Shown here: positions 2,431 to 17,682 of the stretch, piece by piece
Layout: every line of letters starts with the position of its first letter
How positions within the stretch are numbered: position 1 is the first letter of the stretch
Assembly (NCBI GenBank): GCA_017609645.1
Contig: JAFCDQ010000003.1
Span: 62,001 to 126,000 of the forward strand
Length of the DNA stretch: 64,000 nt
DNA from: Candidatus Woesearchaeota archaeon
Lineage (GTDB): Archaea; Nanobdellota; Nanobdellia; Woesearchaeales; ARS49
Direction: 5' to 3'
Translations under genes and position numbers: made by a program
The notes under the pieces: generated by a model
Seen by the model: the letters and a program-made list of their open reading frames with translations, nothing else
Told to the model about the DNA's origin: nothing
The model's database searches: none

Positions 2431-3816
2431 TTATTTCTTCAAATAGTCTTTTAGTTTTTCTGGGTTTTCAGTAATTTCTCCAAAAATTTTATAAATTTTA
2501 TTTTTGTATTTTATTGTAAGTTGCTTTAGTTCTTCTTTATTTTCTATAATGTCTATTTTATTTGTTAGTTTTGCTAAATTTTCATAAGATTGATTTATTG
2601 AAAAGCCAGCGTTTTGTTTTATTATTTTTAGCAGGTCTTTATTTTGTTCTATAAAATTCAATCCTTTTTCTCTTACTAGTTTATACATTGCTGCTGTGCC
2701 ATCGTTATATTCTGTTGCTAATTGTTTTAGTGTTTCTTTATTTTCTTTGATGAATTCTTCTGTGAATTCTCTGAGTTGCCGATATGCGTTTGGTATTTCA
2801 AATTTGTTTTTTATTGGATTTGTCGCTATTATTTTTAGCAAATCTTTATGTTCTTGCAGATTTATTTTATCTGCTAGGCTTATTAATGCGCTGTAGGTCA
2901 AATAAGTTAAACCGCCGCCCGTATTTTGCGCAATTATTTTTAGCAGGTCTTTGTTTTCTTTTAAATCGATTTTTTCTGATAAGTCTGCCAGTATGGGTGT
3001 TGTAAATATGTTTGAGATCTGTAAATATTCTATTGTAAAACCCCCTCTGATTTGTTTTAGGTCTATTATAAATAAGTCTTCATATTCTTTTATGTCGATT
3101 TTCTCAGATAACTTTGCCAGTTTCAAATAAAATTCACGGCGGTTTTTTGTTACCAGTTGCATTGTCGCTTTGACAAGATCTTTATTTTCTTTAAAAAATT
3201 TGAACATTTCATTTTCTTTTGATAAATCTTTCAGAACCAAAAGATCGTAATCATCTATTTCGTCTAAATTTTGTTCTATTTTTGAAAAATCGGGATCGTT
3301 TTGCGGAGTTATTTCTTTTGTTAAAATATCGATACCCGAACTTAGCAAATCTGCTTTCTTAAATCCTTTTAACTCTAAATATTCTTCATCTGCTGTTGAG
3401 GATAAAGGGTTTACTCCTTCTAGTGCATATATTCCTGGTTTAAAAAAGTGCGATAGTATTTCGTTTGAACTTGGATTTCCAAAGTTTTTGTATAAAGCAG
3501 AGCCTCCTAAATAAGCTCCAATTAATGCGATTGTTGCCAGTGTTCCTTTTATTCCTTTTTTCAATATTTTTCTTCTTTTTTGTGTTTTTTCTGCTTTTTT
3601 TGTTTCTTGTAATGCTTTTTCTACTTCTTTTTGTTGTTCTTCACTTAAATTATCTCCATTTAGTCTTTTTTCTAATGGAGTTCCTATTACAGGACTGTTT
3701 GGTTCTAAAAGACTTTTTTTGTTTCTTTTCCAGATTTTCCACCAAGGAGATCTTTCTTCTATTTGTTCTTCTTGATCTTCTTCCCAATCCTTTCCATTTG
3801 GTTTATATGGTGTCAT
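2431..3816 (-). CDS. Membrane-anchored helical-repeat protein, paralogue of the gene at 1-2429
   Basis: 461 residues. It has an acidic N-terminus, a KRRKILKKG basic patch, one membrane segment at about 93-112, a linker with NPLSSTADEEY, then an all-helical region. That region holds repeats of about 35-45 residues with the core (E)NKDLLKIIxxN, clearest at residues ~270-430; charged helices alternate with short hydrophobic ones, as in HEAT/ARM solenoids. The start ATG overlaps the upstream peptidase stop in an ATGA junction, so the two are probably translationally coupled. I know of no family name. By inference it is a bitopic protein with a large exported binding domain, possibly a partner or substrate of the peptidase-like protein next to it. 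Confidence 0.85.
   Translation of the reverse strand: MTPYKPNGKDWEEDQEEQIEERSPWWKIWKRNKKSLLEPNSPVIGTPLEKRLNGDNLSEEQQKEVEKALQETKKAEKTQKRRKILKKGIKGTLATIALIGAYLGGSALYKNFGNPSSNEILSHFFKPGIYALEGVNPLSSTADEEYLELKGFKKADLLSSGIDILTKEITPQNDPDFSKIEQNLDEIDDYDLLVLKDLSKENEMFKFFKENKDLVKATMQLVTKNRREFYLKLAKLSEKIDIKEYEDLFIIDLKQIRGGFTIEYLQISNIFTTPILADLSEKIDLKENKDLLKIIAQNTGGGLTYLTYSALISLADKINLQEHKDLLKIIATNPIKNKFEIPNAYRQLREFTEEFIKENKETLKQLATEYNDGTAAMYKLVREKGLNFIEQNKDLLKIIKQNAGFSINQSYENLAKLTNKIDIIENKEELKQLTIKYKNKIYKIFGEITENPEKLKDYLKK
3373..3816 (-). repeat. Duplicated N-terminal module, copy 2 (about 440 bp)
   Basis: Direct repeat of 1986-2429. Synonymous and non-synonymous differences are few, including in the third-base positions of the membrane segment, so the duplication or gene conversion is recent compared with the diverged C-terminal regions. 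Confidence 0.9.
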
Positions 3817-5246
3817 TTTATTTTGCTCCTTTTGGCATAATCTCCGAAAATATCTAAAAATTTAATTTTATTTGCATCAATTTTACCGTTTTCACCAATA
3901 TCGAATTTAAAATCCATAAGATTGATTAATTTCTCTGCTCCAATCACACATCTTCCATCTGTTTTTTGAGTAAAAAACTCATAAATATTTTCTGTGCCTT
4001 TTGCAGAAGCGCATGATAAAAGCAAGATTACTCCATCTTTTGTAACTGATTCAATTTTTTTGCCGTTTTTTTCATAAGGTCTGAAATAATCTGCGATTTC
4101 ATTATCAGATCTGTCTAAATTAGCTTTTTCATCTATTGAAACATTAAATCTTGGATCATCGCAGCCTAATGCAATAAGTTTGCCGTCTCCATGTCCAAGA
4201 ATTCCTGTAAATACTTTTTCAGGAACTTTTTCTTTTGTTTCATAAAAATCAGTTTCATCATTTGCTACAACAAAGTACGTGTCGCAGGCTTTTGATATTT
4301 TGTCATGAAATTCTTTGATCATATAGGGAGTTCTAAATACTCTGTTCCAGTCTTTTTTTGCAATAACTACAACTGCATTTGGTTTTTCAGTATCTTTAAA
4401 TGGAGCAAATATTTTTTTCAAATTATCTAAAGTAACGTATTTGCTTTCAACTCCTTGGATATAGCTGTTTGTTAAACCATAATCGTGTAATTGTTTAACA
4501 TTAAAATACCCTAGTGATTCAATGCCGTCAAAAATTGGCTCTCCTTTCATTCCAGTTATATCTCCTAATTCACTGGCATATTCTTTAAATTCTTTCAAAT
4601 TTTTTTCTAAGAAAGTTTTTGCATTAAAATCTTCAGATAATAACATCCCTATTTGTCCGTCTCCTGTTTTTATTGGATTTTTTTCTAAATTCTTAATAAG
4701 ATGATATCTAATAAATAATTCTGAGCCTTGTAAATCTAAAAAACCATGAGAAATATTGCCGTCTGCTTTTTTGGAGAATAATGATTCTGTTCTGAAAATT
4801 TGTTTTCCTTTTGAATTTTTGATGTTTAAAATGCTGTTAACATATTCGGGGTAGAATTCATTAAAATTTTCTTTACTTTCAGAATTCATATTTTTTAAAT
4901 TTTCTTCTAGTCCATTCCATAGCATCTTTATTTCTGAGGCATTTGCTTTGTCTTTGAAATTATCAACAAAATCTTTTGGAATGTATTCACAAAGAGCTTG
5001 GTATTCTTTTTCAGCTTTTTCAGCAAGTTCATTTTTTCTCATTTCTGTTGCTGTAATTGCATCAGGAACTTTGATCTGTTTTTTTTGAGGAAATATTGCT
5101 CGGACCATAGGTGTGAAAGCAAGAATAGCAACTAGTCCAGAAAGTAGTCCTTTTTTAGCATAATCTTTGCCTAACTCAATAAACTTCTGGAATTTGCCTT
5201 TTTCTTCAGGTTCGATTTTGAATGCATCATAGAGTATCATTTTCAC
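3813..5246 (-). CDS. Membrane-anchored clan-CD (caspase/clostripain-like) cysteine peptidase homologue
   Basis: 477 residues. A single membrane segment (about 33-52) follows a basic N-terminus, so the bulk is probably outside the cytoplasm or tethered to the membrane. The C-terminal third has the clan-CD pattern: a hydrophobic strand ending in GHGDG (His352), then a hydrophobic strand DGVILLLSCASAKG (Cys412), then a CVIGAEKLI strand. His-Gly followed by a Cys after a beta strand is the dyad layout of caspases, clostripain, gingipain and CHAT peptidases; the exact family is not clear to me. Residues 60-290 are helical and unassigned. The start is supported by AGGTG 4 nt before the ATG and a TATA box about 35 nt upstream. 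First gene of an operon with two helical-repeat membrane proteins (ATGA overlap with the next). Confidence 0.72.
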   Translation of the reverse strand: MKMILYDAFKIEPEEKGKFQKFIELGKDYAKKGLLSGLVAILAFTPMVRAIFPQKKQIKVPDAITATEMRKNELAEKAEKEYQALCEYIPKDFVDNFKDKANASEIKMLWNGLEENLKNMNSESKENFNEFYPEYVNSILNIKNSKGKQIFRTESLFSKKADGNISHGFLDLQGSELFIRYHLIKNLEKNPIKTGDGQIGMLLSEDFNAKTFLEKNLKEFKEYASELGDITGMKGEPIFDGIESLGYFNVKQLHDYGLTNSYIQGVESKYVTLDNLKKIFAPFKDTEKPNAVVVIAKKDWNRVFRTPYMIKEFHDKISKACDTYFVVANDETDFYETKEKVPEKVFTGILGHGDGKLIALGCDDPRFNVSIDEKANLDRSDNEIADYFRPYEKNGKKIESVTKDGVILLLSCASAKGTENIYEFFTQKTDGRCVIGAEKLINLMDFKFDIGENGKIDANKIKFLDIFGDYAKRSKIK

Positions 5247-5278
5247 CTTTTACCTTGAGAAGTTAAAGAGTCAATCCT

Positions 5279-5288
5279 TTATAAACCT
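5279..5288 (-). promoter_or_regulatory. TATA box for the peptidase operon
   Basis: On the minus strand the sequence reads TTTATAAAGG, about 35 nt before the ATG at 5246. This predicts a transcript start near 5257 and a leader of about 11 nt that carries the AGGTG ribosome-binding site. Confidence 0.6.
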
Positions 5289-6046: not shown

Positions 6047-6658
6047 TTACTTATATTTATCCAGAAAAGTTTTAACTTCATTTAAAAGTTGAGCTGTGAT
6101 TTGTGCTTTTAATTTTTTTAAGTCTGTATCTTGAGTAATTTCAAACCAATCTCGTGAAATTCTTTCTCTAAAAAGATCAACATCTGGACCTTCAATACTT
6201 ATTTCAAAGGTAAAGTCAACCTCATAATAATCGCAGAATTGACTGGTAACAACAAATAATTTCTTAGTATATTTTTCTTCTTTCTTTACAAATGATCTTG
6301 CTTTCTTTTTATATCCCCAACTTTTTAAAATAGGATGAATAACTTCTTTTATTATTTGGTCACGAACTATTCTTTGGTCAATAATTTTTCTTAGATTTTC
6401 AAAAATAAGTTCTGTGCTTTTCTTGCATTTTTCAGAATTATCAAGATTTTTTTTAATGTTAGTGATTTCTTTGGCAATCAAACCATGAAGAGCTTTAAGA
6501 AATTCAATGTCAAACTCTTTACCAGAACTAAGCTCTTCTTTATTTTCCTTTTCTAATTTAACTAACCATTTAATAATTTTTTTCTTGTCATTTGCATTAA
6601 AAGCATCTAATAATTTAACGCAATAATCCAGCATCCTTTCAATAATTTTTATACTCAT
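6047..6658 (-). CDS. DUF4304-like protein
   Basis: 203 residues, no membrane segment. The N-terminal half is helical and lysine/glutamate-rich. From about residue 110 the sequence VIHPILKSWGYKKKARSFVK followed by a beta-rich stretch (FVVTSQFCDYYEVDFTFEISI) resembles DUF4304, a domain often found near phage-defence or immunity genes. The function is unknown; the match is from pattern memory only. It has its own AT-rich promoter (TTTATTAAAG about 26 nt upstream), and is separate from the toxin-antitoxin pair that follows on the same strand. Confidence 0.75.
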   Translation of the reverse strand: MSIKIIERMLDYCVKLLDAFNANDKKKIIKWLVKLEKENKEELSSGKEFDIEFLKALHGLIAKEITNIKKNLDNSEKCKKSTELIFENLRKIIDQRIVRDQIIKEVIHPILKSWGYKKKARSFVKKEEKYTKKLFVVTSQFCDYYEVDFTFEISIEGPDVDLFRERISRDWFEITQDTDLKKLKAQITAQLLNEVKTFLDKYK

Positions 6659-10797: not shown

Positions 10798-12162
10798 TTA
10801 TTCTATTTCTTCTTCAGAATCCTTGATGTAATAATCAAGTATCTCGAAATTAGAATATCCTAATTCTTTTGCTTTTTTAAGATCTTTCAAACTTTCTTCA
10901 AATTTATCTATTTTGTTTAAGAAAGATCCTCTTTCAAAATAAGCATTAGCAGCTTTTGGATTTAATTTTATTGCTTTATTAAAATCTTCAAGAGCTTCTT
11001 TTTCTTTACCTAATCTGTAAAAATGTTCTCCTCTCCCAGTATATATTTGATAATGATTAGGATTTAATTCAATTGCTTTAGCAAAATCTTTTTCAGCTTT
11101 ATCATAGTTGCCCATTTTTGAATGTATATCTGCTCTTAATGAATATTTATGACAACCCAAAAGATCTTTTATTCCATTTTTTTTAACAGAAGCAAGATTA
11201 AATTCTTCATTTATTTTGATTGCTTTATTCATATCATTTATTGCTTTTTCATGTAACTTTAAATTACAAAAAGCCAGGGCCCTTAGTTGATATGCTCCTG
11301 AATTATTTGAAAATAATCTAAGAGAAGCATTGCAATGTTCTATAAGTTTATATGGATCTTTAAAATGAGCTAGACCCAAGGTTTCTAGATGAACTGCCAG
11401 TAATTGTTTTTTTGTTAAAGAAGGGAAAAATTCATGACATATTGGCCCTCCTACATCTATGGCGTATATTAAAGGTCTGAAAGAATGTTCAAATTCTTTG
11501 GCGCGTTTATAACTTTTTACTGATCCATTAGGAAGTTTTATTTTTTTTGTTGTTTCCCAATCAAAAGTTTTGCCAGATTTTAATTTATATCTTAAAAAAA
11601 CATGACATATATTATCCAAACCTGTTGTAACAACAGGAGAAACTTTTTCAGACAAACCTAACGCATCAAATACACTTAAGTATGTAAACACAAGAGTATC
11701 GCAGTCTAAACCTCCTTCCGCTAAACCTTCTGTTAAATAATATCTTGCTTTGTGTTCTTTAGTTTTATTGTCAACAATATCTCCGACAGATTTTAGAAGT
11801 TTTTTTGCTTCATCCTCAGAATAGTTAGCTTTTACTTTGATGGTTTTTTTAGATTCAGCAATTATTTCATCTAAAGTTGTCTTTGCTTTTTTATGATGTT
11901 TTTTATATTTCTCAGGCAGAAGTTCTGCTTCCAGAGTTAGAATTTTATAGCCAAAATTTGTTTCTTTTTCAGCTTTCTTTAATGCTTCTTCAATCTTTTT
12001 TGCATAAGAAAATCTTTCTCCTTCTTTGTAAACACAATATTCATCTGTTTTAGGATTTAGTCTTAAATCATGAACGCTGCAAGAAGAAAACAATCCTGCT
12101 AAAGTCACTAAACCTAGTGCAAACCCTGCTTTTATTGGTTTTAGAATTTTGTCTAGACTCAT
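10798..12162 (-). CDS. Lipoprotein with transglutaminase-like domain and TPR repeats
   Basis: 454 residues. The signal peptide ends in a lipobox-like LFSSC (Cys28). Residues ~60-210 carry a transglutaminase/SirB1-like triad: GGLDCDTLVFTYL (Cys154), NICHVFLRYK (His187) and TFDWETT (Asp201). Residues ~280-450 are about five TPR units (AEKDFAKAIELNPNHYQIY, ALEDFNKAIKLNPKAANAY). By family, the fold can be a protease, amidase or crosslinker; no substrate is visible. Its ATG is 2 nt after the stop of the upstream gene, and its N-terminus matches those of the next two genes in the operon, so the four are likely co-expressed on the cell surface. Confidence 0.85.
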   Translation of the reverse strand: MSLDKILKPIKAGFALGLVTLAGLFSSCSVHDLRLNPKTDEYCVYKEGERFSYAKKIEEALKKAEKETNFGYKILTLEAELLPEKYKKHHKKAKTTLDEIIAESKKTIKVKANYSEDEAKKLLKSVGDIVDNKTKEHKARYYLTEGLAEGGLDCDTLVFTYLSVFDALGLSEKVSPVVTTGLDNICHVFLRYKLKSGKTFDWETTKKIKLPNGSVKSYKRAKEFEHSFRPLIYAIDVGGPICHEFFPSLTKKQLLAVHLETLGLAHFKDPYKLIEHCNASLRLFSNNSGAYQLRALAFCNLKLHEKAINDMNKAIKINEEFNLASVKKNGIKDLLGCHKYSLRADIHSKMGNYDKAEKDFAKAIELNPNHYQIYTGRGEHFYRLGKEKEALEDFNKAIKLNPKAANAYFERGSFLNKIDKFEESLKDLKKAKELGYSNFEILDYYIKDSEEEIE

Positions 12163-12164
12163 TT

Positions 12165-13466
12165 TTATTCTTTTTCATTTTTTGGTGAATATGCTATTGA
12201 AAATTCTATTGTTTGGTGATAGAGGGCGATTTTTACTCCGCCTATTAACAAGAAATCTCCAATTCTTTTCTTAAAAGTGCCTTCTGCTGCGCTAATGTTT
12301 CTGCTATATTCATAATTATTTGATTTTATATTAGGATGATCTAGTATGTAAGAAAGACCGATGTCCGTGCCTTCATCATCAAAATCTTTAATTATTATTC
12401 CTATTTTGTGTGAGATGTTTTCTAGCTTTAATGAACTTGGATAGGTATATGACTTTTTTGAAAAATTTATTTGATAATGCAGAGAAACTTTATCACTTAC
12501 ATTCAAAATTGCTTCTGCATTAAAATCTAATCTTTCATGACCTGCTAAATTTATTGGTAAGTTTACATGACCTAAAAGAGAGACATTTTCATTAGAATAA
12601 CCGCATCCTATTCCTGCTTGTGCATATAAGTGACTGAAAATGATTGTTTGATCTGACTCTATGTCCTCTAATCCTAATTTAAAGCTTAGTTCACCAAATA
12701 ATCCTTTTTCTAATTCTTTCGCTAGTTTGTCTAATTCTAGTGGTTTAGTGCCAAAACTAAAAGAAGGAAAAGTAAGTTCTCCTGCAGTTAATATTTTGCC
12801 TTTTTCTTCTAAATAACTTCTTTTGAATGATAAGTTTCCGCCTAACCAATTTCCAATATTCCAGCTTTTAATATCTAAATTTGCAAATAATTCATATTCG
12901 AATTTATCTAAAGTATTTGTAAGCAATTTTAGTTCATCGGAAAAATAATCACTTCCCTTAGCTTTGCCGCCTATAACTAAGCTGCCCTTTAAGCCATCTT
13001 CTTTTATTTTATTTTTTTCCCAAGGTACCCAAAAGTCAGCATCAGGTTCTTCTTCTATTGGTGAAAATTCTAAATTATATTTATCTTTAAATACTCCTAT
13101 ATCCCAGTCTTTGATAACATAAAAATCACGATCTTTCTTTTTTATCACAGAATCTATTACTTTCACGTCATCTGTTTTCATTTCATCCATTATCTCTTGA
13201 ACATTTATTAAATTTGAATATTTTTTTATTAATGAGTTTAATTGTTTTTGTTCACTTTGTGTTATTTTTTTGTCTTCTATGATTTTTTCAAATTCTTTTT
13301 TGAAATTTCTTGTATTTTGTTCTTTACCTAAATCATGTGCATTTTTAGAATAAGCGGTATTTATAAAATTATAAGAAGAAAACAGACCTGCCAAAGTCAA
13401 TAAACCTAATGCAAATCCTGCCTTTATTGGTTTTGTAATTTTTCCTAATATTTTTTCTAATGCCAT
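12165..13466 (-). CDS. Exported beta-rich, barrel-like protein
   Basis: 433 residues from ATG 13466 (MALEKILGK); the longer frame to 13517 would overlap the previous gene, and the chosen start lines up with the N-termini of its neighbours. The signal peptide matches theirs but the lipobox Cys is Tyr (LFSSYNF), so it is probably not lipidated. Residues ~35-110 are helical; ~150-430 show alternating hydrophobic residues with tight turns (KGSLVIGGKAKGS, LYAQAGIGCGYSNENVSLLG, DIGLSYILDH, IEFSIAYSP), the pattern of an outer-membrane-type beta-barrel or a large beta-sandwich. No family recognised. A barrel would be surprising in an archaeon. Confidence 0.75.
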   Translation of the reverse strand: MALEKILGKITKPIKAGFALGLLTLAGLFSSYNFINTAYSKNAHDLGKEQNTRNFKKEFEKIIEDKKITQSEQKQLNSLIKKYSNLINVQEIMDEMKTDDVKVIDSVIKKKDRDFYVIKDWDIGVFKDKYNLEFSPIEEEPDADFWVPWEKNKIKEDGLKGSLVIGGKAKGSDYFSDELKLLTNTLDKFEYELFANLDIKSWNIGNWLGGNLSFKRSYLEEKGKILTAGELTFPSFSFGTKPLELDKLAKELEKGLFGELSFKLGLEDIESDQTIIFSHLYAQAGIGCGYSNENVSLLGHVNLPINLAGHERLDFNAEAILNVSDKVSLHYQINFSKKSYTYPSSLKLENISHKIGIIIKDFDDEGTDIGLSYILDHPNIKSNNYEYSRNISAAEGTFKKRIGDFLLIGGVKIALYHQTIEFSIAYSPKNEKE

Positions 13467-13479
13467 TTTTAATTGATAT

Positions 13480-16305
13480 TTATTTATTTTTTGCACGCAA
13501 TTGTTTTGCTTTTTCAAAGAATTTATTTGCTTCTTCTGCTCTGCCTAGCCTTACTAAAGCAACACCTTTATTGTTATAGGCATTAATTAATTTTGGATTT
13601 ATTTCAAGGGCCTTATTATTACATTTAATTGAATCCTCAAATCTTTTTAAATGATTTAATGCAGCGCCTTTGTTAATATAAGCATCAGCATGTTTTGGGT
13701 TTAGTTCTATGGCTTTATCATAAAATTTAATTGCATCTTCAAACTCACCTAAGCCATATAGAGTATTTCCTTTGCTATAATAACCAATTGTAAATTCTGG
13801 ATTTAGTTTTTTTGCTTTATCATAATGTTTAATTGCTTCTTCAAACTTACCTTGTCCGCATAAGGCATTTCCTTTGTCATAATAAGTTTCAGCATCTTTA
13901 GCTAATTCATCTGAAGATTTTTTTAGTTCTTTGGTTATTTCTTCAAGTATTTTGCAGCCTTTTTGTGTGTCTTTTTCTTCTGGTTTTGTGAAAAAGTTCA
14001 ATAATATCGCATCTAATACATCCACTAAATGTAAAGAATCTTTATCAGCTCGATTCATAGAGACACGAGGCCCTACTGTTTTTAGCCAATCCCGTTTAAT
14101 ATCTTTTGAATCAAGATATTCTTGCAACTCTGAGAATATTATTGTCTTTGTTTTATTGTTACGAATAATATATATATTTTCTGGGTCATGTGCAGATATT
14201 ATTGCTTTGCTGTCATTAAATTTCAATCTATATCCTTCTGTTGTTCTGACAAAATTATATTTTTCTTGTTCAGGTGCTTTTCCCCATTTTCTAATACCTT
14301 TTATTGTTTCAGTAAGATTTTCTCTAACATATTTGATAAGATCTTCTGCTTCTTCTCTATTTTCTTTATTAGATGAGAGTTGTTTATGCATTAAGTTCAA
14401 GTCCAGCATTCTTACAACATCTTCTGTTTTAGTATAGTCGCAAGAATCATAAGAGTTATTATCAACTAATTCTTTGTTTAATGCTTTTAAGAATCTTTTT
14501 TGATCTGCTTTAGCGACTTTATGACCTATTTCTTCTTTAACTTCTTCTTTTCCGCTTATTCTATTATCATCAAGTGGAATTACAAGTTTATAATATGCAT
14601 AATCTATTCCTTTTTTTACTAAATCATCCCAGTCAGAGAATTGTTTTGGTCCTCCTTGTCTGAACATTATTTCATATCCATTTGCTGTTCTGATTAAGCC
14701 TTCTATTTTTCTGTCAATAATTATTTTTTCTTCTAGAGTTTCTTTCTTTTCTAGAATAGGAGTTGTCTCTGCATCTTCTGTTGGATTTACTTTTTCTTTT
14801 TTTGGGATGGCAGGAATTCTAGGCCATGTTTTTGGAATTGTTTCTTTTTTTGTGTTTCCAGGAAGTTTATCTAGGGCATTTTTAGCATTTTCTTCAACTT
14901 CATCAAATTCACTTTTAGGAGTTTCATCAGTAACAGAGTTTTTCCTCGTTCCCATAATATACATTTGTATTCCTGCTTTTCTTAACTCTCCATTTTCTAT
15001 GTTGCCATCAGTTAATTTTTCGAATTCTTCTGGTGTTATTTCTCCAATAACATCAATTAATCCGCCTTTCTTTTTAACAAGCTCATATATTCTTTTCTTG
15101 ATTACACTGCTTTCTAAGTTTAGCTTGTAAGCTTTGCTTGCTAGCATTTCTCCATTATTATATTCTGTGAATTTGTCTTGTAAAACCATTAGTGGTCCGT
15201 ATTTACTATGTGTTTTATTATTCTCATCTGTTACAATCAATGTAGAAATATCATCCAGACTTGCATTTTCTAAAAATTGAAGTTCATAAGTTGTTCCTCT
15301 TGTGTGCTTTTTACCTTCAGCATCAGTATATTCTATAATTATTGCAAAATCATGTTCATAATTTTTTAAGTGTTCATCCAGAATCTTTGCGTTTTCTTTT
15401 ATTGTTTTTTCCAATTCAATTTGTTCATCTTGGTCTGCTTTAACTGCATCTAATCTGGCGGAGGTATATGATTTTGCAGTTTTTCTTATTGATTCTGCAG
15501 TTTTTCTTATTTTTTCTTTAGTCAGTCCCAAATCGTCATAATATTGGTTTAGTATTGTAATTACTTCATCTCCTAAATCAGGTTCATTAATTTCATTTAA
15601 TATTGGTATTAATTTTGCATCAGTTAAAAAACCGCCTTTGTATAATCTGCGGTCATCTTTCGTCCAAAGCCCAGGACTTTTTCCATCCATTCTTTCATCT
15701 ATGAATTTTTTATGTTCGTTTTTTAGGTGATAAAAATATTTTTCTTTTTTCTCTTCTGGATTTAAATCAAAATAATTAAAATCTTTATTTTCACTTTTTA
15801 TTGATTCTCGCACTAATAATGGCAAAGTTAATTTTGGATATATTTTTTTGAAGAAATCTAAAGCAGTTTCTCCTTCTTTTAATGGTAAAACCATATCTTT
15901 GAAAGATGGTTCTGATTTTTCATTATTTCTTTCAAGAATATATCTTGTTTTTCCGTCAACATCTACTTCTAAAACACATTCTATTCCAATTTTTCTCTCT
16001 ATTAAATCATTTATAGGTTTTAATTGAGAGATAAAGAATTCTGTTTGATTATCACTAATTTCATATTCGCTTTCAAGTTTCATTAATTTTTTTTGTTCTG
16101 AAGTTGTTATTTTCTTATCTATTAGAATTCCTAAAACTTCTTGTTTAAATTGTTCTGCGTGTATTGCTTTTGTTTGTGTTGGAGGATTTTGAAATCTTTT
16201 ATCAAAACTTTCAGGACTTTTACAAGAAGAAAAAAATCCTGCTAAAGCCATTAAACCCACGGCAAATCCTGCTTTTACTGGATTTAAAAGTTTTTCTAAG
16301 GCCAT
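13480..16305 (-). CDS. Large lipoprotein with C-terminal TPR repeats
   Basis: 941 residues. Signal peptide with lipobox-like FFSSC (Cys28), near-identical to those of the next two genes. The middle (~490-790) is homologous to the whole mature part of the 16308-17636 product: shared IRTANGYE(I/L)MF, EVKEEIGHK, YNFVRT, VSxxRxDxxxLHLVDVLD and KGCKIL blocks. The C-terminal ~130 residues are four TPR units (AIKHYDKAKKLNPEFTIGYY, AIKFYDKAIELNPKHADAY). Residues 40-480 are helical and charged, with no recognised domain. Function unknown; the TPR end suggests protein binding at the cell surface. Confidence 0.85.
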   Translation of the reverse strand: MALEKLLNPVKAGFAVGLMALAGFFSSCKSPESFDKRFQNPPTQTKAIHAEQFKQEVLGILIDKKITTSEQKKLMKLESEYEISDNQTEFFISQLKPINDLIERKIGIECVLEVDVDGKTRYILERNNEKSEPSFKDMVLPLKEGETALDFFKKIYPKLTLPLLVRESIKSENKDFNYFDLNPEEKKEKYFYHLKNEHKKFIDERMDGKSPGLWTKDDRRLYKGGFLTDAKLIPILNEINEPDLGDEVITILNQYYDDLGLTKEKIRKTAESIRKTAKSYTSARLDAVKADQDEQIELEKTIKENAKILDEHLKNYEHDFAIIIEYTDAEGKKHTRGTTYELQFLENASLDDISTLIVTDENNKTHSKYGPLMVLQDKFTEYNNGEMLASKAYKLNLESSVIKKRIYELVKKKGGLIDVIGEITPEEFEKLTDGNIENGELRKAGIQMYIMGTRKNSVTDETPKSEFDEVEENAKNALDKLPGNTKKETIPKTWPRIPAIPKKEKVNPTEDAETTPILEKKETLEEKIIIDRKIEGLIRTANGYEIMFRQGGPKQFSDWDDLVKKGIDYAYYKLVIPLDDNRISGKEEVKEEIGHKVAKADQKRFLKALNKELVDNNSYDSCDYTKTEDVVRMLDLNLMHKQLSSNKENREEAEDLIKYVRENLTETIKGIRKWGKAPEQEKYNFVRTTEGYRLKFNDSKAIISAHDPENIYIIRNNKTKTIIFSELQEYLDSKDIKRDWLKTVGPRVSMNRADKDSLHLVDVLDAILLNFFTKPEEKDTQKGCKILEEITKELKKSSDELAKDAETYYDKGNALCGQGKFEEAIKHYDKAKKLNPEFTIGYYSKGNTLYGLGEFEDAIKFYDKAIELNPKHADAYINKGAALNHLKRFEDSIKCNNKALEINPKLINAYNNKGVALVRLGRAEEANKFFEKAKQLRAKNK

Positions 16306-16307
16306 TT

Positions 16308-17636
16308 TTAATCATACGCCTCTTCAACATTATCTTTTATATAACTCTTAAGTCCTTCTTTTATTTCAGAAAGTATTTTGCAGCCTTTTTGTATGTCGTT
16401 CTTAGATGCTTTTGTGTAAAAATTCAATAATATGTTGTCTAATACATCAACTAAATGTAAAGCATTGTTATCTGATCTGTCTAAAGATACATGAGGGCCT
16501 ACTGAGTTAAGCCAGTCTTTATTGATTTCTTTTGAAGTAAGATACTCCTGCACTTCTGTGAATTTTCTTGCTATTGTATTGCCGTCAGATGAGGTTAAAT
16601 ATATATCTCCTGAGTTGTCATTAGATATTATTACTTTATATCCATCTATTTTCAATTTATAACCTTGCATTGTTCTGACAAAGTTATATTTTTGTTGTTC
16701 AGGTGCTTTACCCCATTTCGTTATCTTAGGTAAAGTTAAATCTAGATTCTTCTTGACGCATTCAACAAGAGATTCTGCATCTTTTTTGTTGTCTTCATTT
16801 AATGAAAGTTTTTTGTGCATTAAATTTAAATCAAGCATTCTTACCATGTCTTCCATTTTGGTGTAGTCATAGTCGTCATAAGAATCTGTATCAGAAACAA
16901 ATCTGTTTTTTAATTCTTTTAAGAATTTGTTCTGATCTATAGCTGAGATTTTATGCCCTATTTCTTCTTTTACTACTTCTTTTCCAGTGATTCTGTATCT
17001 ATGAATTTTAATTGAATTTTCTTCAATCGGAATAACAAGTTTATAGAATGCATAATCTACTCCTGTTTTTATTAAATCAACCCAGTCATCAAAATTTTTA
17101 GGTTCTCCTTTTTGAAACATTAGTTCATATCCATTTGCTGTTCTGATTATTTCATTCATTCGTTTCTCTAATGGAACATATTTAATAGGCTCAGTTGAAA
17201 GATCTTTTTTCTTAGCAGTTACTTTTGATTTTGGATTAATTAAGTCATCAAGTTTGCCAAATGCATCATCAGCTGCGTCTTCTACTTTACCATATTCATT
17301 TTTTGGAGTTACTTTTGAATTTGATTTTTCTTTTTTTCGATTGCCAGGAAGTCTGTCAAAGGCATTTTCAGCATTTCCTTCTACTTCATCAAATTCATTT
17401 TCTGTAACTTTCTTGTAACCAGTAGGAAATACATTATCACTGCCTTCTGTTTTATCTTCTTCTGTTTTTTTATTTTCTTGGTTATTTTTTGAATTTACAT
17501 TATGTTCTATGTTTAATTCTTTTACTTTAAGTTCAGCATCAATTTCAGCAGAAACTTTGCAACCATTAATAGTGTAACTGGCAATTGTTAATAATCCTAA
17601 CGCACCCATAATTTTGATTTTATTCCATAAACTCAT
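16308..17636 (-). CDS. Lipoprotein sharing its main domain with the 13480-16305 product
   Basis: 442 residues from ATG 17636, chosen because AGGAGGT lies 7 nt before it; an in-frame ATG at 17660 lies upstream of the SD. The signal peptide MSLWNKIKIMGALGLLTIA ends in INGC (lipobox). A low-complexity Asn/Lys/Glu stretch follows (to about 150), with two repeats of the type FDEVEGNAENAFDRLPGN. The ~300-residue domain behind it recurs in the neighbouring large lipoprotein (KITKWGKAPEQQKYNFVRT, LHLVDVLDNILLNF). It is first in a four-gene operon; its stop is 3 bp from the next start. Family not recognised. Confidence 0.85.
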   Translation of the reverse strand: MSLWNKIKIMGALGLLTIASYTINGCKVSAEIDAELKVKELNIEHNVNSKNNQENKKTEEDKTEGSDNVFPTGYKKVTENEFDEVEGNAENAFDRLPGNRKKEKSNSKVTPKNEYGKVEDAADDAFGKLDDLINPKSKVTAKKKDLSTEPIKYVPLEKRMNEIIRTANGYELMFQKGEPKNFDDWVDLIKTGVDYAFYKLVIPIEENSIKIHRYRITGKEVVKEEIGHKISAIDQNKFLKELKNRFVSDTDSYDDYDYTKMEDMVRMLDLNLMHKKLSLNEDNKKDAESLVECVKKNLDLTLPKITKWGKAPEQQKYNFVRTMQGYKLKIDGYKVIISNDNSGDIYLTSSDGNTIARKFTEVQEYLTSKEINKDWLNSVGPHVSLDRSDNNALHLVDVLDNILLNFYTKASKNDIQKGCKILSEIKEGLKSYIKDNVEEAYD

Positions 17637-17643
17637 TTTTGAT

Positions 17644-17682
17644 ACCTCCTGAAATATCATTATATGCTATATATATTTAATT
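17644..17682 (-). promoter_or_regulatory. TATA box and strong ribosome-binding site of the lipoprotein operon
   Basis: On the minus strand TTAAATATATA (about 17671-17681) is followed about 26 nt later by a predicted start near 17649 and by AGGAGGT (17644-17650) 7 nt before the ATG at 17636. This SD decides the start codon. Confidence 0.65.

Follow-up and report, generated by a model that had tools for sequence, protein, structure and literature searches.

A candidate peptidase at the head of a tight operon

What kind of protein is encoded by the first gene of a tight operon in the tiny genome of a Candidatus Woesearchaeota archaeon, and do the genes behind it act with it? The window, by which we mean the whole 64,000-nucleotide stretch of DNA analysed here, contains a gene (P0001, Table 1) whose GHGDG and LLLSCASAKG motifs had led a first-pass annotation to propose a membrane-anchored, caspase-like peptidase of clan CD that works with a pair of giant helical-repeat scaffolds. 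Elsewhere, caspase-fold peptidases take part in cell death, toxin processing and immunity. We consider it probable that P0001 is an exported or membrane-tethered clan-CD caspase-fold cysteine peptidase, belonging to a divergent archaeal branch related to the Pfam domain DUF4347.

The open reading frame carrying both motifs is present and lies on the minus strand, which the annotation had left unstated; a plus-strand reading of 3813-5246 is ruled out by 34 stops. It encodes 477 residues when started from GTG 5246 and 475 from ATG 5240. The ATG, 6 bases past the GTG and preceded directly by AAGGTGAAA, is the more likely start. Residue numbers are counted from the GTG throughout, in keeping with the first-pass numbering. 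Beyond the candidate TATA-like box, further upstream, is a divergent gene encoding an RNA-methyltransferase domain.

Table 1. Positions of the features discussed, in window coordinates
Feature	Position	Strand	Description or basis
P0003	3..2429	minus	901 residues in total, runs past the window; P0002-like N-terminal module, longer repeat region
P0002	2431..3816	minus	461 residues; charged N-terminal tail, one weak hydrophobic segment, about seven repeats of ~35 residues
P0001	3813..5246	minus	N-terminal anchor, helical region, C-terminal clan-CD (DUF4347-like) peptidase domain (predicted)
Peptidase-like domain, P0001 residues ~280-460 (well-modelled core 280-440)	3867..4409	minus	AF2, fold matches, invariance
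Cys412 codon	4011-4013	minus	Motif LLLSCASAKG
His352 codon	4191-4193	minus	Motif GHGDG
Stretch with two degenerate family short repeats, P0001 residues 134-152 and 222-241	4524..4847	minus	Repeat HMM
Single hydrophobic anchor segment, P0001 residues 34-52	5091..5147	minus	Hydropathy; inferred topology
Candidate TATA-like box TTTATAAA, with GAAAGG before it, upstream of the operon	5278..5285	minus	Read from sequence

A predicted caspase-like fold with an invariant histidine and cysteine

Fold, dyad in register with that of Tce1, family membership and the frequency of export signals were all computed. The AF2 model of P0001 has a mean pLDDT of 57 over the whole protein, with blocks of the domain at residues 280-440 mostly at 80-91 and the divergent C terminus below 50. 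The modelled domain contains strands at 290-296, 322-328, 344-350 and 401-410; the third of these runs up to His352 and the fourth to Cys412. A Foldseek search with the full-length model was weak, giving no E-value below 0.001, and the C11 structure 6n9j was among its matches. Realignment of the matches placed Tce1, a DUF4347 protein (9qpe_G), first with a Z-score of 10.9 (rmsd 3.2, 152 residues aligned) and SAVED-CHAT (8tl0_C) second with 10.8 (rmsd 3.6, 155 residues); both exceed the background of ~7.6 given by unrelated response-regulator structures. Further clan-CD matches were caspase-3 (8.0), legumain (7.8), gingipain (~7.4-7.8) and the Craspase TPR-CHAT 8d9f (7.5). The alpha/beta/alpha sandwich with a parallel sheet that typifies clan CD is found in the modelled domain and is borne out by the two leading Z-scores, and the motif of the clan, a His-Gly after a hydrophobic strand and a Cys after the next, is found as His352-Gly353 and Cys412.

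In an alignment of 34 homologous domains the only columns without exception were His352, the adjacent Gly353 and Cys412; a 20-domain alignment left only P14, H76, G77 and C126 invariant (numbering of its first row). When the family profile HMM was aligned with 9qpe, HG fell on HG and SC on GC. His352 and Cys412 of P0001 thereby fall on His186 and Cys240 of Tce1 (9qpe counted from residue 110), the catalytic dyad proposed by its authors (PMC13323088). A direct sequence search of the PDB returned 9qpe as its sole meaningful match, at an E-value of 0.22 that is meaningful only because the histidine and cysteine line up. Since a homologous domain with the same two residues occurs in 25 of 287 genomes, and all 34 aligned domains keep the dyad, the pattern is not due to chance. 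The first-pass annotation had staked its clan-CD reading on two points, a caspase-like predicted sheet and conservation of these residues among homologues, and the reading came through on both.

An inactive caspase-fold protein that serves as a binding module could account for the divergent sequence and C terminus of P0001, and orthocaspase pseudo-variants are known (PMC6426788). Such variants, however, replace exactly the histidine or cysteine, whereas here these residues and the adjacent glycine are the sole ones kept in 34 of 34 domains, and we regard an inactive protein as very improbable.

The search against clan-CD profiles succeeded for the family and failed for P0001 itself, which matched no clan-CD model in Pfam: neither Peptidase_C14 nor, up to an E-value of 10, DUF4347, whose model scored above its cut-off at 0 places in the P0001 genome. 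Among 20 family domains, 8 matched DUF4347 (best E-value 5.3e-9) and one matched Peptidase_C14 (3.9e-4). Three family loci lie above the DUF4347 cut-off; against this cut-off of 24.6 bits, loci in genomes G126 and G107 scored 35.8 and 24.6 bits, and both were also matched by the family profile. A paralogue from the P0001 genome (L049) stayed below the Peptidase_C14 (PF00656) cut-off, with 18.0 bits (E-value 0.0025) against 21.4, and the CHAT model (PF12770) was matched below its cut-off by one member only, weakly (0.031-0.035). Because P0001 matches neither DUF4347 nor C14, we call it DUF4347-like and base its assignment to clan CD on fold, dyad and homology; it is not a Pfam member.

Tce1 of Pseudomonas aeruginosa is a solved member of DUF4347 (PF14252; PDB 9qpe; PMC13323088). 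The archaeal proteins resemble it in fold, in the equivalent places of histidine and cysteine and in the HG and xC motifs; in contrast to Tce1 they have N-terminal anchors and repeats and no link to the type VI secretion tube. The CHAT proteins of SAVED-CHAT and Craspase share the fold, and TPR-CHAT also has a helical-repeat region ahead of the domain, but the sequence match is weak and limited to a single member (0.035). CHAT systems, moreover, reside in the cytoplasm and are set off by sensors of nucleotides or RNA, of which none was seen at the family loci inspected. Caspases, orthocaspases and metacaspases (C14) have the same strand-His-strand-Cys order, and L049 adds its sub-threshold C14 score, but their Z-scores (up to 8.0 for caspase-3) sit in a range where common folds also score, and no p20/p10 arrangement or known specificity is shown for P0001. 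Legumain (C13), gingipain (C25) and the clostripain-like C11 peptidases share the clan fold but not a sequence match to P0001. Gingipains are exported, as P0001 appears to be, but P0001 is far smaller and membrane-anchored.

A patchy family with frequent export signals

Searching relatives with the single sequence identified homologues in 3 other genomes, as well as a second copy in the P0001 genome. A profile (A2) built from these first homologues extended the family to 25 of the 287 genomes of the order, including a third copy in the P0001 genome. The spread across the order is patchy, and family loci in named records belong to Candidatus Woesearchaeota and Nanoarchaeota. The three copies of the P0001 genome are divergent; the family tree is compatible with one origin, though at weak support (37/83), and P0001 forms a long branch in it (1.62). 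Two scans of viral contigs with short patterns, which could miss distant relatives, and tblastn against plasmids and phages gave nothing that would point to a viral or plasmid origin.

The membrane anchoring proposed for P0001 is supported. Its single hydrophobic segment, together with homologues that have signal peptides, lipoboxes or anchors, points to an exported or membrane-anchored protein, with a membrane topology that is uncertain because charges flank the segment on both sides. Under a strict hydropathy threshold, 20 of the 33 distinct members have an N-terminal hydrophobic segment, and 8 have a lipobox-like motif. The frequent plan is an N-terminal signal, lipobox or anchor followed by short repeats and the C-terminal domain. 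Members L053, L059 and L060 have no export signal, so the family is not uniformly extracytoplasmic.

The repeats between signal and domain, seen in many homologues, are ~33 residues long (GGT-EYA-LASLKD-KGNPLF-G-DI). A repeat HMM was built mostly from units of these same family proteins, with P0001 excluded from the building set. At best it picked out as many as 15 stretches in one protein, against 0 in shuffled proteins; the counts are partly by construction for the proteins that supplied the units. In P0001 it found two degenerate copies with a whole-protein E-value of 2.4e-6.

In the open literature DUF4347 turned up in four papers, and no description was found of an exported DUF4347-like branch from Woesearchaeota or from DPANN archaea in general. 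These proteins apparently form an undescribed archaeal peptidase family whose members mostly look exported, and they tie an uncharacterised Pfam domain, DUF4347, to a wider range of architectures.

Several family loci have features of their own. One homologue of 2231 residues carries two caspase-like domains (L060:3361-10056, G213), and at another locus three short members of ~280-294 residues each stand in tandem (L036:275-2927, G028). In three genomes, small or medium pilin-like proteins, with a short basic tail and then a hydrophobic stretch, are encoded near family genes (L049:2897-7520, L061:5239-6924 and L067:2967-4325).

The co-encoded repeat proteins P0002 and P0003

P0001 and P0002 overlap by 4 nucleotides (ATGA) and a gap of 1 nucleotide separates P0002 from P0003, a spacing that suggests translational coupling of the three genes. 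P0003 is completed at L003:9724-12429; 55 bases further along comes a gene of 964 residues with the same orientation. The proposed coupling to two repeat proteins with a common N-terminal module is borne out by this spacing and by an amino-acid identity of 93% over residues 1-148 of P0002 and P0003; 'giant' is the wrong word for proteins of their lengths (Table 1). At the nucleotide level the module is 94.8% identical, eleven of the codon changes being synonymous and eleven non-synonymous, and similarity is lost by about nucleotide 480. The two anchored repeat proteins were probably made by a recent partial duplication. In both, the weak hydrophobic segment after KRRKILKKGIKG would fit a signal anchor that leaves the charged tail on the inside.

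Their predicted helical-repeat nature has the backing of sequence and lacks that of structure. The two repeat regions are related (z ~10 against shuffles) and internally repetitive (z 3 to 6.5), whereas the predicted structure of P0002 is unusable, with a mean pLDDT of 34.

The suggestion that a peptidase and paired giant scaffolds form a system for host contact found no support. No homologue of P0003 was detected in 96 relatives, and a search of 274 genomes for the shared module gave no convincing match. The peptidase-plus-scaffold order is not kept in related genomes and holds in the P0001 genome only: P0002/P0003-like neighbours were found neither at its two other peptidase genes nor at those other family loci for which a gene map was read, where the neighbours are varied and largely housekeeping-like. 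A family origin for the module was rejected, since the weak hits it gave (1.2e-4 for the best) cover charged tails and a hydrophobic segment in unrelated proteins, and we treat them as composition. A Rosetta-stone fusion linking the P0002/P0003 repeats to the peptidase-family repeats was likewise rejected; a repeat HMM made for this question found only P0002 and P0003, and other targets were no better than shuffles. Among the weak module hits is a YkuD L,D-transpeptidase protein from an archaeon of the same order (L082:739-2605, G220; Pfam E-value 1.1e-14), which combines a charged tail and one hydrophobic segment; the product of an adjoining gene looks similar by eye.

P0002 and P0003 may be substrates, scaffolds or bystanders of P0001, gene coupling being the sole evidence. 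That the gene order is due to chance, an unrelated lineage-specific duplication having come to lie behind P0001, is a serious prospect whose likelihood we put somewhat short of even. It would explain why the order is not conserved elsewhere, why the two paralogous peptidase genes of the same genome have no such neighbours and why no sequence is common to the P0002/P0003 repeats and the family repeats. The coupling suggested by the ATGA overlap and the 1-nucleotide gap speaks against it, as does the N-terminal-anchor plan common to P0001, P0002 and P0003. Chance order concerns the partners only and is compatible with P0001 being a tethered peptidase. The coupled P0002 and P0003 are the likeliest partners or substrates, in this lineage (one genome) only.

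Possible action at the cell surface

Activity, orientation and target are inferred. The single N-terminal segment would keep the enzyme in the cytoplasmic membrane, its domain facing outwards, the short repeats of the family would place or restrain it, and the predicted peptidase would cleave proteins at the cell surface. Its targets could be exported proteins of the cell itself, which it would mature or shed, or else proteins that belong to a neighbouring cell.

The same fold would also suit a cytoplasm-facing regulator or defence effector that cleaves a cellular protein when triggered, like the CHAT of SAVED-CHAT and Craspase. SAVED-CHAT ties with Tce1 as top structural match, L054, L059 and L060 are large multidomain members without signals, and the charges on both sides of the P0001 segment leave room for the opposite orientation. 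Most members, however, have N-terminal signals or anchors, no nucleotide-sensor or CRISPR gene lies beside the family loci inspected, and PADLOC models matched none of P0001, P0002 and P0003 and only one homologue, at 0.014. We therefore hold a cytoplasmic role to be rather unlikely.

Returning to a surface-tethered peptidase, the annotation had suggested a cell-contact, host-attachment or self-processing system in an episymbiont-like archaeon. P0001 could then be aimed at a partner cell, either as an effector that depends on contact or as an attachment factor. Tce1, the nearest solved relative, is a putative effector delivered into other cells (PMC13323088), and both the patchy presence (25 of 287 genomes) and the exported architecture agree with such a use. 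Against it, the source genome has no known host, nothing ties the family to a delivery system or an attachment gene, and neighbours at other loci are varied and largely housekeeping-like. Host-contact use of P0001 is possible, and we consider it improbable. We give equally little credence to the fuller scheme of an undescribed surface-tethered caspase-fold family of host-dependent archaea, in which a lineage-specific anchored repeat pair would be processed by the enzyme, or would steer it, during contact with a partner cell. Cell-cell contacts of DPANN archaea are poorly understood, and if the family is active at the surface it would provide a concrete enzyme for remodelling the cell's own surface or that of a neighbour.

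Other genes in the window

A 203-residue protein is encoded on the minus strand at 6047-6658; its C-terminal half narrowly passes as a match to DUF4304 (25.9 bits against the Pfam cut-off of 23.2). Also on the minus strand, four genes in a row occupy 10798-17660. Their products open with nearly the same signal sequence, which in some includes a lipobox (KAGFALGL.TLAGLFSSC), and two of them carry TPR repeats at the C terminus. The 450-residue product of 12165-13517 gave no Pfam match; its C-terminal half is beta-strand-like.
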